DNA of 64,000 nucleotides, taken from NCBI GenBank assembly GCA_029204225.1, contig CM055104.1, positions 52,134,294 to 52,198,293 of the forward strand, given 5' to 3'. Positions 4,367 through 62,308 of this stretch are shown piece by piece (the first letter of the stretch is position 1; the number at the start of each line of letters is the position of its first letter). Below the pieces are notes generated by a model that was not told where the DNA came from, did not search any database, and was given only the letters and a program-made list of their open reading frames with translations. The position numbers and the translations under genes were made by a program. The DNA comes from Diphasiastrum complanatum (Eukaryota > Streptophyta > Lycopodiopsida > Lycopodiales > Lycopodiaceae).

Positions 4367-4421
4367 GAGAGAGAGAGAGAGAGAGAGAGAGAGAGAGAGA
4401 GAGAGAGAGAGAGAGAGAGAG
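4367..4421. repeat. (GA)n microsatellite, 5' boundary of LINE-B
   Basis: A pure GA run of 55 bp. It marks the 5' end of the minus-strand LINE-B. Similar GA runs border LINE-D, -E and -F in this window. Confidence 0.95.
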
Positions 4422-6130
4422 TATGTAGCCACTAGTTGCTAGTATGATGTATTTGCTATGATCATTCATGTTTTGTTCAATTGCATAAGTTTTTGTTCGT
4501 AGCTCAATTTGGTCATTGTTACCAGAGGTAACCACAACACCAGCCTTGACTCTCAAATTTTAATGCTCAAACATGTAGATGAATGCACATCTTACAAACA
4601 CAATAGCCTAGCAATTGTATTTTAGGAACTATCAATGTTTATCTAGATAGTTCAACATATATTGTATGGAGAAATAGGAGATGGAAATATATGTGGAATG
4701 GTCATTATGAGCGAGCAATTCGGGCTGCATTGTTAACAAGAACATTATTAGTGGACCAATTGTAAGGATTAGGACTTATAGAGCCTGCTTACAAAGCACC
4801 AAAAGGAGTAACAGTTGGATAAAGTCACTTCCCCTAGTATTGTTTGTTTACAATAAGCAGCCAGCTTGGAGAACAATAGTTTGCAAAATACTTTGTGCTT
4901 ATATGGTTTTGAATTGAGGTTACCTATCATAGTTATAACTAGAAAGTGTATTTTGTAAATGCGGTTGATTCTCTTGATGATATGTGAGTAGTGCAACTTG
5001 CATTAGAAAGATGTCTGGGATGCTCAAGATTGAGCTAATCATTATGCGAACCTTAAGAGCATGCTCAAGGGCACTTAGGCCTATACATGAATAAGATGGG
5101 TGCTTGGAAAGAGCACCCACATGGATATGATAACCATAACAAAGGATTCCAATATGGATACTAATATGGACAAGATGTCCGTAATACTCCCAAACTGAAA
5201 AACCAATGATCTCAATGTGGGTATCTATATAACAACATGATGTAGGAATTGTATCCTCAAGAACTAGTACATGTATAAAGCAACGCCATGGAACAAAATC
5301 CTGCAAAGGTGCATGTGGTGACATAACCATTCGGTATTACACGACACCCCAATCATGAAGACAAATGTGAAGCTCTACCAAGGTACTCGGATGACCCAAG
5401 AATGCCAAATGGTAGCATCAAAACATGTCTTTGTGAGAACTGCTCCAAACCTTGTATGTATTAGGCAAGCTGTCTAGACCTAGTATGCTAGAGAATGGCA
5501 TCAATATGAACATCTTGGCATCAACTACGAAAGACCAATGCCACATCAATAGAAATAAGAGACCATATCAAGCAATAGTGCTATGTAAGACCATCTAGAT
5601 GCATAGTATAAAGGAAATATGATGCCAAAACATAAGAGAGGAAAGATCCCATGGAAACCACACTTTAACAATGTATATCTGAATGGAAAGCCATGGTTGA
5701 AGCAAGTAGGTTATGTTTGTGATTGTATCCATCGACAAAAGAATACAAATGGGCCCAAAAGATGTGATAGAGAAGAGACTTGACTAGGGCTAACCTCCCA
5801 CATGCATAAAATGTTTTTAGAACTCTTGTAAAGATTAGTCAATAACTATTACTATACATTTTGAATTGATGCTATTGCGCTCCAAAATCAAAGAAAAGCT
5901 AGTCAATGGATAGACCTAAAAATTCTTATGAACCCTTGCTTCTTTAGTAGCATTGCTTCCAAATCAAGTGTTTTGGTTTGTAGAAAACACAATCCACTAA
6001 TAATATTTCTTGATACTCAATCATGCATGCTATATTTGCTAAGCTTAAATTCTCGATTTGGATAGTTGATTAAGTCGAAGATGCAAAAACATGTTTTGGC
6101 TAACATTACAACATCTAACCTATATGGCAG
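4422..6130 (+). other. Intron sequence upstream of first visible NOMO exon, no gene seen
   Basis: AT-rich DNA with stops in all frames and no recognisable domain. The part nearest 6130 has a branch-point-like ctaac and an AG acceptor for the exon at 6131. The preceding NOMO exon (signal peptide and the conserved GCGGFVE region) was searched for here and not found. It is presumably left of the window. Confidence 0.6.
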
Positions 6131-6196
6131 GCAAGTGCAACTTTGGCGAAGTTGAGGAAGTTGTCTGATCCAAAACTTGACTACTCACAAATGACG
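6131..6196 (+). CDS. NOMO: NOMO exon 1 (of those visible)
   Basis: 22 codons, phase 0 at both ends, acceptor ...tatatggcag and donor gtagga. It translates to ASATLAKLRKL followed by SDPKLDYSQMT. This fits the segment before the conserved VELQT..DGLVKD in plant NOMO proteins (typically ...KLDFSHIT). It was found only because it completes the next exon. It is short and 7.4 kb from its neighbour, so confidence is lower than for the others. Confidence 0.8.
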
Positions 6197-9100
6197 GTAG
6201 GATTCATCTTCGAGTTGTTTTACTTTTAAAGAAATTTTACTTGTATTGTGGATGGAACGACTTAGGATTGGATGCTATTTTTGTAATTTAGTTGATTTCT
6301 ACAAATTTGCATATCCTATTTATGAGAAACACAGTCGTATCTCATGATTTGTTTGCATACGTGTGATCCTCATATTTTTGACTAAAAAATAGAGTTATGA
6401 CTCAAGGTATGCAGTTTCTATGGTTTTTATTTTACAAGTTCACTTCCCACAATCTAACACCTTATTTAGTTGTTCTATTGTCACAAATTACTTTAGTGTT
6501 TTTGTGAAAGTATCATGCTCGTAGTAAACTTTGGAATGTTTTGAGTAGCTAGTCTTAGTCTTTTGACTTTTAAAACTCTTTTTGTTGTCTTAATCCTTGA
6601 CATGACTTTGTTTGCATACGTGTGATCCTCGTATTTTTGACTAAAAAATAGAGTTATGACTCAAGGTATGCAATTTCTATGGTTTTTATTTTCAAAGTTC
6701 ACTTCCCACAATCTAACACCTGATTTAGTTGTTTTATTGTCACAAATTACTTTAATGCCTTTGTGAAAGTATCATGCTTGTAGTAAACTTTGGAGCATTT
6801 TGAGTAGCTAGTCTTAGTCTTTTGACTTTCAAAACTCTTCTTGCTGTCTTAATCCTTGGCACAGAAGATACTATGTCATTTATTAATGTGTCTTTCCATT
6901 TTACATTGAACCAAGAAGCATTTCATTATAAACCAAGAAGCATTTTACATTGAGAAACCTTCTAGTATCATTTTAGTTTTCCATCCCTTGTTCCAAAAGT
7001 AAGGGACGGACTTTCTTAAAGCATAAGTACTCACTTTTTTTTGAACTTTCTTAGAGATTGTTGACTTGTTTGTGTTGATTATCTTGTAGTAGGCAAGTCC
7101 AACTCAAGCAAATAAATTCAATATCAGTCATAAATTGGGGACTAGTTATATTAAAGGGAGATGATTTTTGTTGCAAACAAAGGTCTAAAGATAACAAAAG
7201 CAACCTAGGGTTACACATAGAATAAACATTTACCAAAAGCTCGTATTTTTTTTTTCATAGAGTGGTGATGCAAGTGTCCATTTCTCAAATCACTTGCCAT
7301 CTATTCTATAGCTTGTGAAGAGTAATACAGAGACAATGACTAGTAATGGATCCGGAAAATAGAACCAGGCTTATCAAACATGAAATTGTAGTTTGATGAA
7401 TCCATCACATGAACAAATTTTTTGTTGCCTACCATGCGATAACGCTGGATATTGCTATTCATAGCATGCTGTGCCGTCAATTTAGGTCATTAGACATCGT
7501 TTTAACGCTCTTTGCACTAGGATGTCACAAGGGTGTACCTTGGACCCTCAATCCAACAGAACAAGGTCCATAGGCCCAAATGTGCAAAATGAGTGTTGTG
7601 TTGGTCCCTCAACTTAGGTTGGTGCACGACTAGTGATTTTATGGTGCTTTATCAGTGGCATGGACTTTGGTGCTTGGCCCATCTCACTAACTAGAGCTCA
7701 GACGTGTGCAATACCGACATCTAGATCTGTGCAATGCACAATACTTTTTGTTTGTTATGGTATGGAAACCCCCCGGGGCCCCACTAGCTTCTCAACTAGA
7801 TGTTGGTGCTAAGCACAATTTTGACGTGCCGTTGGCTAGCATTTGTTGGAAAGAAAAGAGAAAATGAAAATTATGTGTGCATTTGTGTGATGAATGCAAA
7901 ACAGATTCTCGTATAGCTCAAGGAAACAAGTCAACTAACCATTTGACTATCACTAATGCATGTGAAAGAGAAACCAAAAAAAGAACATCCAAAAAACTAG
8001 ATCACATCTTACAGTTCTTCCCATATTTTTGAACGACTTATCTAATTCCAATGATTGTTGGTGCAATGGAAAGCACACTTTAAGGGTTTTTCATTGTTGC
8101 AAAGATCGCCTTATTTGGATAAGTAACGCTACAATCATGGTCGTCTGAATATTCTAACTATGAACCCTAATCGATATAGTGTTGATGCTCGGGACACTCT
8201 GAAGAACTCAAAGTGCCCGTGCAATCCCTGTCAAAAGCTGAAAAGGTATTGTGAGAAGGAAAAGCAAGCTCAAATAGATCAAGCATTAGGAGGTAATTAA
8301 AATCAAGTAAAAGACTAGTTAGACCTTACATATGAATCAAAAGAGATCATATAGTAATCCACAAGCTTCTCTACATAGCCAATCCAACACAAACAAATCA
8401 ACCTCATAGACTTACAGTCAACAAGAGGAACTCCTAAATCACACCATAAGTGAAAAAGTGAGGGAGGGTGGTTGCTTTAATAGTTTTGCCAAGCACATCA
8501 AGGGTGAATCCAACTCCTTAATAGTAACTGGGGGTCTTTCTCAAGCTTAGTGGTATGTCTTATTTCGTTTGGCATTAATGGTTCCCATTATCAATGGACC
8601 CTTCTTTGTGGCAAAGTAGGCTCTTTGATTAGTTATGCCAGGAAGATTCCCAACATCTTTACAGTGCCAATCCCTCTTACGGGTCTTGAGGTATGAATTC
8701 TTGGGGCCTTTTGAAAATTGGTCCATGACTCTTAATGAGCTGTTTCTTTTAATAGGGCTGGAAAACCCATGTTTAGCATGATTATTCGACAATTGTTGAC
8801 AACACTTCACTTCCTTCCTGTTATGGCTACAGCAAATTTAACCAGAGATCCATGTCGGTTTTGGTTTAACGATGGTCAAATTCGCTAGCAATTCATGATA
8901 CTACCAATGTAGTAGTATTGGTTGGATGTCAAAATTGGAATCATCTTTGTGATGTCGTAAGGGTTACAATCATATTCAAGTTGATTGGTGTGATAACATG
9001 CTTTGTTTGTTCATGTGATAGATCCAATAATTCTGGGAAAGCAGTAGTCTTTGTTGTAGGTTGAAAATTAGTCACCATTCATTCTTACCCTCAATCCCTT

Positions 9101-61503: not shown

Positions 61504-61509
61504 GTTTGA

Positions 61510-62172
61510 GAAGAGAGAGAGAAAGAAAGAAATTTTTATTGTCCAAGAATGCTAAAAAGCGTAGTACATACTACATATTAAGTGTTATAAAGAACTCAAT
61601 GAACTAAATGAAACTAAAGGAGCTTTCTACATAAATGAGCACATACTGTAAATGATATCATGAAACAATGATATACGAGTCAGTTCCATGATCTGTATAT
61701 ATATGAAAGTCAATAATAGGTCATGGTAGAGCTGGAGCTCTATTGAAATAAGAAGATGGCCCCGACACTGCAAATGGTGTTGAAGATGGAGGGGGTTGTC
61801 GTCTCTGAGGTCTCTGAATAGCTCTCGATCGCAATGGTAAACACTACCTCTGATCACGATGTGGGTCATGGAATGGGATATTAGACTCATCCTTAGGTAG
61901 TATCTCACTCTCAATATCTGCTCTAAAGTGTCTCCTCCAAAAAAAAGAGGTAATTTGGGGGCTGGGAGCCTAAATCTCCATACTGGTGCTACTGGCATGT
62001 ATGTTTGCATAGGAGAAACATCTTCTGTATCATCAAAGCAACACACGGATTCACATAGGAAATAAGAGAATGTAGTGTGACTAGGGAATTACGATAAAGG
62101 TAGTGATAACGGCCTCTCATCTCATAATGTAGAGGACACCTGAAACTAGGATGCTCTTCAGACTCCACCTCC
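61510..62172 (-). pseudogene. LINE-E 3' end (C-terminal scrap)
   Basis: On the minus strand from 62172: LEEVESEEHPSFRCPLHYEM, RGRYHYLYRNSLVTLHSLIS and YVNPCVALMIQKM, the zinc-region C-terminus shared with LINE-D and -F. It ends ggacaataaaaatttctttc followed by a short TC-rich tail (61504-61530). The 5' end is truncated exactly at the 127-bp (GA)n tract. Confidence 0.82.
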
Positions 62173-62181
62173 TCTAATGTC

Positions 62182-62308
62182 AGAGAGAGAGAGAGAGAGA
62201 GAGAGAGAGAGAGAGAGAGAGAGAGAGAGAGAGAGAGAGAGAGAGAGAGAGAGAGAGAGAGAGAGAGAGAGAGAGAGAGAGAGAGAGAGAGAGAGAGAGA
62301 GAGAGAGA
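62182..62308. repeat. (GA)n microsatellite, 127 bp
   Basis: The longest simple repeat in the window. On the minus strand it follows the 3' end of LINE-F (attaataaagatctttctc) and precedes the truncated start of LINE-E, so it separates two LINE insertions of the same orientation. Confidence 0.97.

Follow-up and report, generated by a model that had tools for sequence, protein, structure and literature searches.

Why do the ends of long interspersed nuclear elements (LINEs) at one locus fall again and again on the same dinucleotide repeat? The locus is a stretch of 64,000 nucleotides (nt) from Diphasiastrum complanatum (assembly GCA_029204225.1, contig CM055104.1, positions 52,134,294 to 52,198,293 of the forward strand), hereafter called the window. 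It carries pieces, LINE-A to LINE-F, of a LINE family that was predicted, from the letters alone, to end on (GA/TC)n microsatellites. We show here that this family is TC-associated: its 3' ends run into TC in one fixed orientation, behind a covarying hairpin, most of its scored 5' ends lie on TC as well, and some of its copies stand head-to-tail in chains with TC between them. The family is probably TC-targeted, a reading that is supported by the 3' end of LINE-A, which lies beyond the window, and by a chain of LINEs on contig C8.

LINE termini and TC tracts in the window

Pure (GA)n that reaches 10 units or more occurs at just four places in the window (plus strand, 4367-4421, 48181-48201, 51845-51908 and 62183-62308), and each of these tracts adjoins the terminus, as drawn, of a minus-strand LINE piece (Table 1), which confirms the central claim of the original prediction; at all four the sense strand of the LINE reads TC. 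Two shorter plus-strand TC tracts (36007-36018 and 41528-41545) had no neighboring LINE coding match when the window was searched with tblastn. Six termini had been counted on the same dinucleotide; what stands of this count is five termini on four tracts, together with the imperfect tail of LINE-E, the tract at 62182-62308 having been counted twice. That the 3' end of LINE-F and the 5' end of LINE-E both lie on this tract was borne out, with the coding match of LINE-E reaching 62171, and so was the TC-rich tail of LINE-E, imperfect as it is.

LINE-D had been placed between the tracts at 48181-48201 and 51844-51908. Both tracts do adjoin it, giving it TC on both sides, but its 5' part is inverted, which had been missed, and homology ends about 100 nt before the outer tract (at 51743), so that the last stretch is drawn rather than matched. 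Because the 5' part lies inverted on the plus strand, what meets the tract at 51844 is the outer end of that segment. Twin priming in L1 elements is well established to leave an inverted 5' part, and LINE-D, with such a part joined to an opposite-strand piece that runs from the reverse transcriptase (RT) to the 3' end, has the same layout. Inversion of the 5' part in LINE-D and 5' truncation in LINE-E, LINE-F and L034d (a copy beyond the window) are both typical of target-primed insertion.

At LINE-B, the tract that had been assigned to the 5' end does adjoin the drawn terminus, but the boundary is extended over about 500 nt beyond the last homology, which consists of open reading frame 1 (ORF1) words common with LINE-A to about 3855, found by reading. 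LINE-A and LINE-B may together be one chimeric insertion, with 55 nt of TC at the 5' end of LINE-B and 76 nt at the 3' end of LINE-A.

Table 1. LINE pieces, 3' ends and TC tracts in the window (positions count from the first letter of the window; UTR, untranslated region).
Feature	Position	Strand	Basis or remark
LINE-A	1..2950	-	ORF1 1914-2570; endonuclease and RT start 47-2110; 3' end beyond window
LINE-B, 5' part of element	2985..4366	-	tblastn to LINE-A ORF2 at 3637-3029, 73% identity
TC tract, 55 nt	4367..4421	-	putative 5' end of LINE-B
Old LINE 3' end w12710	12710..12770	+	hairpin, ACTAATAAG, then 19 pyrimidines; model R1 27.6 bits, E 0.00076
LINE-C, C-terminal coding fragment	23212..23473	+	tblastn
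TC run, 21 nt	48181..48201	-	LINE-D 3' end
LINE-D conserved 3' hairpin and GGCGTTAATAAAGCTC end	48199..48245	-	
LINE-D 3' part (RT, C-terminal region, 3' UTR)	48202..50970	-	PF00078 27.8 bits
LINE-D 5' part (endonuclease region), inverted	about 50970..51843	+	tblastn to LINE-A ORF2 50935-51662; tblastx to 51743
TC tract, 65 nt	51844..51908	-	outer end of LINE-D inverted part
Imperfect TC-rich tail of LINE-E	61508..61531	-	
LINE-E, 5'-truncated, C-terminal coding region to 3' end	61531..62181	-	tblastn 62171-62004
TC tract, 127 nt	62182..62308	-	common to LINE-F 3' end and LINE-E 5' end
LINE-F, 5'-truncated	62309..63235	-	tblastn 63231-62630
LINE-F conserved 3' hairpin and GACATTAATAAAGATC end	62311..62357	-	

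The 3' ends and their hairpin

Eleven 3' ends were found (LINE-A, LINE-D, LINE-E, LINE-F, L012a, L012b, L001x, L006x, w12710, L034c and L035d; names in L refer to sequence beyond the window). All eleven have at least 17 pyrimidines in the following 20 nt and no A run longer than 6 in the following 150, in keeping with the predicted succession of a 3' word and TC in place of poly-A. The word reads TTAATAAAGCTC in LINE-D, TTAATAAAGATC in LINE-F, TTAATAAAGCTT in LINE-A (beyond the window) and, in a degraded form, ACAATAAAAAT in LINE-E. All seven of the ends that were traced from coding sequence (LINE-A, LINE-D, LINE-E, LINE-F, L012a, L034c and L035d) run into TC or TTTC/TC. In six of these seven the TC run is pure and 21 nt or longer; the exception is LINE-E, with its degraded tail.

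Such tails admit a first alternative, namely that the LINE inserts without any target preference and that its own TC or TTTC tail then seeds a repeat that grows by slippage, a course reported for RTE elements of Lepidoptera. TTTC repeats precede TC at the 3' ends of LINE-A, L035d, LINE-E and L006x, where they look element-borne, and the old tails (w12710 and L001x) are short and degenerate, as tail-seeding would have it; the 5' ends and the tracts of the genome at large, considered below, bear on the same question.

A covarying hairpin precedes GACATTAATAAAG at the 3' end. The structure has an outer stem (GUCUU/AAGAC) and an inner five-pair hairpin, followed by AUUAAUAAAG. In an alignment of seven 3' ends (LINE-E having been dropped from an earlier eight), 87.1% of the alignment cells pair in a structure that was picked from these same sequences; shuffling gives 81.3%, and sliding the structure gives no more than 53.1%. 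Eight cells and four pairs are altered on both sides, which was matched by 0 and 4 of 500 shuffles, respectively. A covariance model (R1), scanned over 358 kb with no tail filter beyond its last two or three positions, returned its seven training ends and one new end, at 12710-12754 of the window, which is also pyrimidine-tailed. After R1 was built, L034c (53.9 bits) and L035d (50.0 bits) were found, and both run into TC; they were sought in expectation of TC ends, an expectation that was unrecorded beforehand.

Copies beyond the window and a head-to-tail chain

On its 3' side LINE-A continues into L001, where its 3' word ends at L001:6083 and GACATTAATAAAG is followed by TTTC-rich sequence and then by a 76-nt TC run. 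Elsewhere in the same sequence, at L001:2821-2865, a LINE-like 3' end that has a hairpin and a TC-rich tail adjoins sequence with no LINE coding match; it may belong to a short, truncated LINE or to some non-autonomous relative with the same 3' end.

On contig C8, entered through the blind sample L012 and followed via L025, L034 and L035, four LINEs stand head-to-tail with TC runs of 66, 10 and 110 nt between them. In L012, a LINE 3' end leads into the 66-nt run, then into a stretch that ends in the LINE 3' end GACATTAATAAAGCTCTCTCTCTC, and then into a long LINE with its putative start at an ATGGCT about 27 nt after the TC. This long LINE is interrupted by a repeat whose terminal copies are 88% identical, and it resumes in L034, which gives it a length of about 6.1 kb (by arithmetic over L012, L025 and L034). 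The resumed coding sequence passes into the hairpin and GACATTAATAAAGATC and from there into the 110-nt TC run, and a truncated LINE follows directly; this fourth member, itself interrupted, was recovered in L035, where its 3' end passes into TTTC repeats and then into 40 nt of TC.

A chain of this kind might also be laid down in one event by template jumping, in which the RT, on running off the 5' end of its LINE RNA template, continues on the TC tail of a second such RNA and so produces a concatemer. Members of the chain do share their orientation, and the junction between LINE-A and LINE-B resembles a join of two element templates. However, the neighbors that were compared have diverged from each other: LINE-F and LINE-E have only a 27-nt match at 85%, and on C8 the third member matches the fourth over 293 nt at 78% identity (a comparison that covers this pair). 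Template jumping would also leave LINE-B and LINE-D unexplained, as no LINE was found upstream of either, and we consider it quite improbable as the source of the pattern.

The 5' ends

Six of the eight scored 5' ends lie on TC, namely LINE-B (55 nt), LINE-D (65 nt), LINE-E (127 nt), L012b (66 nt), L012c (11 nt) and L034d (110 nt); those of L001x, L006x and w12710 were left out of the scoring. The ends differ in how firmly they are placed. Homology reaches the tract at LINE-E (as above) and at L034d (where the DNA match begins at 2847 and the tract ends at 2849), stops about 590 nt before it at L012c (ORF1 match from L012:6385), and in L012b the 3' UTR is the sole recognizable part. For LINE-B, LINE-D, L012b and L012c the boundary was drawn at the tract because nothing else intervenes, without an aligned copy that displays it, and the exact position of these four boundaries is what we infer. 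Beyond the 5' tracts of LINE-B and LINE-D, neither tblastn nor the 3'-end model found a LINE coding match or a LINE 3' end.

Could the contact arise merely because GA tracts are so common that LINE ends adjoin them by chance? The 270 kb of blind sequence does hold 34 tracts that reach 8 units or more, which lends this idea some footing. However, a random point is followed by (TC)5 within 12 nt with a frequency of only 0.0035 (40,000 draws over the sequence examined, with sequences equally weighted and the window not reversed), as against six of eight scored 5' ends and six of seven traced 3' ends on pure TC, always on the sense strand. For the 5' ends this gives a nominal probability of 5e-14, a figure that assumes independent ends although neighbors in a chain share tracts. 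The two 3' ends found after R1 was built (L034c and L035d) agree with the others, and coincidence is so strongly disfavored that we give it hardly any weight.

Tail-seeding fares somewhat better at the 5' ends, since four of the six TC-borne ones lie on the tail of an upstream LINE. Nothing in it leads one to expect the TC at the 5' ends of LINE-B and LINE-D (55 and 65 nt, with no LINE found beyond and with boundaries placed as described), and it does not sit well with the blind sequence, most of whose TC tracts have no adjoining LINE. On balance we think it unlikely that tail-seeding accounts for the pattern.

Points that weigh against targeted insertion

Several observations count against a LINE that chooses TC as its target, and they concern both ends of the element. 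Two of the eight scored 5' ends (LINE-F and L012a) are off TC; that of LINE-F (about 63235) joins other repeat-like coding sequence, which is gypsy integrase-like by reading of the letters and for which Pfam gave no family. The junction between LINE-A and LINE-B (about 2950-2985) is without TC, and if it is taken as a terminus the TC-borne 5' ends become six of nine. Of the six, LINE-E, L012b, L012c and L034d share their tract with the tail of an upstream LINE, which leaves only LINE-B and LINE-D with 5' TC free of a neighbor's tail, and both of their boundaries bridge sequence past the last homology (~500 and ~100 nt). No 3' end was found for LINE-C in the window or for the plus-strand LINE piece at L006:3505-3675, and an empty site for LINE-D, sought in the sequence examined, yielded no more than 44 nt of its 5' flank, matched at 84% at 23984-24027 of the window, which is too little. 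The filter through which L001x and L006x first came to light asked for the word plus TC and so favored such tails; the two are therefore not independent and have no place in any test. As for the hairpin, the choice of its structure and its scoring draw on the same sequences, further pair types are not raised (6 versus a shuffle mean of 7.0, with 475 of 500 shuffles at least as high), and LINE-E and L006x lack the hairpin when folded singly, LINE-E being absent from the alignment.

TC tracts and LINE copies in the genome

The genome searched was the window's own assembly (1.7447 Gb in 5176 contigs). With overlapping occurrences counted, each strand has about 1.9 million copies of a GA 20-mer, and GA tracts are thus common in this genome. 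In 27 blind 10-kb samples (270 kb), pure TC/GA tracts of 8 units or more number 34 (26 once neighbors are merged); one of the 34, in L012, is known to adjoin a LINE end, as judged by LINE tblastn, reading of the flanks and the 3'-end model; the tract at L006:1-50 lies at the edge of its stretch and was not judged. For each of four further tracts near the start of contig C1, neither a LINE piece nor a LINE 3' end could be detected in the surrounding 3 kb. Thus, tracts mostly exist without a LINE, while most of the LINE ends examined are on tracts. No LINE coding match at all turned up in eight of these 27 samples (L026-L033, 80 kb). The notion that GA tracts in general derive from this LINE was considered and rejected on the same counts (none of four on C1 and one of 34 in the blind samples known to adjoin a LINE). 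One blind sample without a LINE coding match holds a compound TC/TG array of nearly 300 bp (L017:3912-4184).

The 3' word GACATTAATAAAGCT has 2,407 + 2,475 = 4,882 exact matches genome-wide, against 3 + 1 = 4 for a reversed control word; the count refers to one variant of the word and covers the word, not its flank.

A probable self-renewing target

We regard (TC)n-targeted insertion with a target that the element itself renews as the best explanation of these observations, and a likely one. Under this explanation, (TC)n/(GA)n microsatellites would be the sites at which the LINE inserts, through target-primed reverse transcription of an RNA whose 3' end consists of the conserved hairpin, then GACAUUAAUAAAG and last a short tail of TC or TTTC. 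A nick would be made by the endonuclease in the GA strand of the microsatellite, and the exposed GA 3' end, we infer, would then anneal to the UC tail of the RNA and prime synthesis of the complementary DNA; rejoining of the 5' end into the same tract would leave TC on both sides and one fixed orientation. The TC tail of every insertion would renew or extend the target, so that later copies could enter earlier tracts, and it is because each insertion carries such a tail that head-to-tail LINE-(TC)n-LINE chains would be possible.

A wider picture can be drawn, in which every insertion of this LINE provides sites for further ones, head-to-tail chains can lengthen without a set limit, and the genome's stock of TC tracts may have grown in part through the element; we offer it tentatively, as a prospect a little short of even. 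If targeted insertion is confirmed, it would show a LINE using an abundant target that it renews itself and would explain LINE-(TC)n-LINE arrays, and the approximately 4,900 3' ends would offer a countable test of target choice.

Protein identity

Judged by its predicted proteins, the family is a non-long-terminal-repeat (non-LTR) retrotransposon, that is, a LINE, with an apurinic/apyrimidinic (AP)-type endonuclease. ORF2 of LINE-A matches the endonuclease family PF03372 at 39.1 bits (cut-off 24.5), and LINE-B matches it at 20.9 bits, below that cut-off; the partial RT of LINE-D matches PF00078 at 27.8 bits (E 2.5e-06), just below the cut-off of 29.6. Against solved structures, the RT piece matched the R2 RT at E 0.004-0.04, ORF2 of LINE-A had no match at E up to 0.01, and the endonuclease profile gave only non-significant matches, to F-box proteins (E 0.08-0.1) and then to L1-type endonucleases (E 0.13-0.8). 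ORF1 matched no retrotransposon family in Pfam at E up to 0.1. The predicted models are poor, with a predicted local distance difference test score (pLDDT) of 50.9 for ORF1 and 31.1 for the endonuclease, and no relatives of the LINE were found in viral_contigs.

Other features of the window

Pfam matches also include DUF659, RVT_2 and gypsy-type families, a set that, given where DUF659 is common, would suit a plant host. Self-alignment of the window displays large inverted and direct duplications between 29867 and 43578 (~30.2-33.1, 33.7-36.5 and 41.0-43.6 kb, 82-94% identity). A 259-bp unit stands in two tandem copies of 93% identity at 6343-6858, and about five tandem copies of a 68-71 bp unit at 24139-24478 directly follow a putative LTR end and primer-binding site (TTGGTATCAGAGC).

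Comparison with known systems

Kibi and Koshi, elements of the Tx1 clade in fish, are reportedly specific for TC repeats. They resemble the present family in being non-LTR elements with an AP-type endonuclease and a TC-repeat target; they differ in host, and the likeness drawn here is one of action. Beside them, the Togen families of fish, described as (TG)n microsatellite-specific in passages of PMC4640811, mean that dinucleotide-specific LINEs are already known from fish. Togen is likewise a non-LTR family that targets a dinucleotide microsatellite, but, according to the same passages, it is related to NeSL, one of the clades with a restriction-like endonuclease, and uses a different dinucleotide. 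Those passages place target-specific families mostly in the early-branched, Tx1 and R1 groups and describe some HERO families as microsatellite-specific (PMC4640811).

Among the papers listed from the open-access literature, none described a LINE of plants with a dinucleotide microsatellite as its target; as a sign that such elements do not exist, this is weak evidence. Plant elements do share single traits with this family. A monocot L1 lineage has a conserved RNA structure at its 3' end (PMC3747384), so that a plant L1-clade LINE with a structured 3' end can be set beside the hairpin described here, a likeness of the hairpins by description only; in the relevant portion of that paper no microsatellite targeting is described. 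The L1-CS LINEs of Cuscuta europaea, a lineage targeted to a satellite, come close as plant LINEs with targeted insertion into tandem repeats, but their target, as given in part of PMC8091179, is an L1-like motif in the satellite monomer and not a dinucleotide microsatellite.

Microsatellite targeting and array formation also occur together outside LINEs. The SaTar MULE (Mutator-like element) arrays of guayule and rice, as portrayed in excerpts of PMC5907723, consist of microsatellite-targeted elements in uninterrupted multimeric arrays, and in this they resemble the chains reported here; they are, however, non-autonomous DNA transposons and not LINEs. Micron of rice is likewise cited, in a section of PMC3411680, as a microsatellite-targeting element. 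RTE elements of Lepidoptera are also non-LTR elements tied to microsatellites, and by the account in part of PMC2887409 they generate microsatellite families; there the element makes the repeats, whereas in the family described here the scored 5' ends, too, lie mostly on TC.

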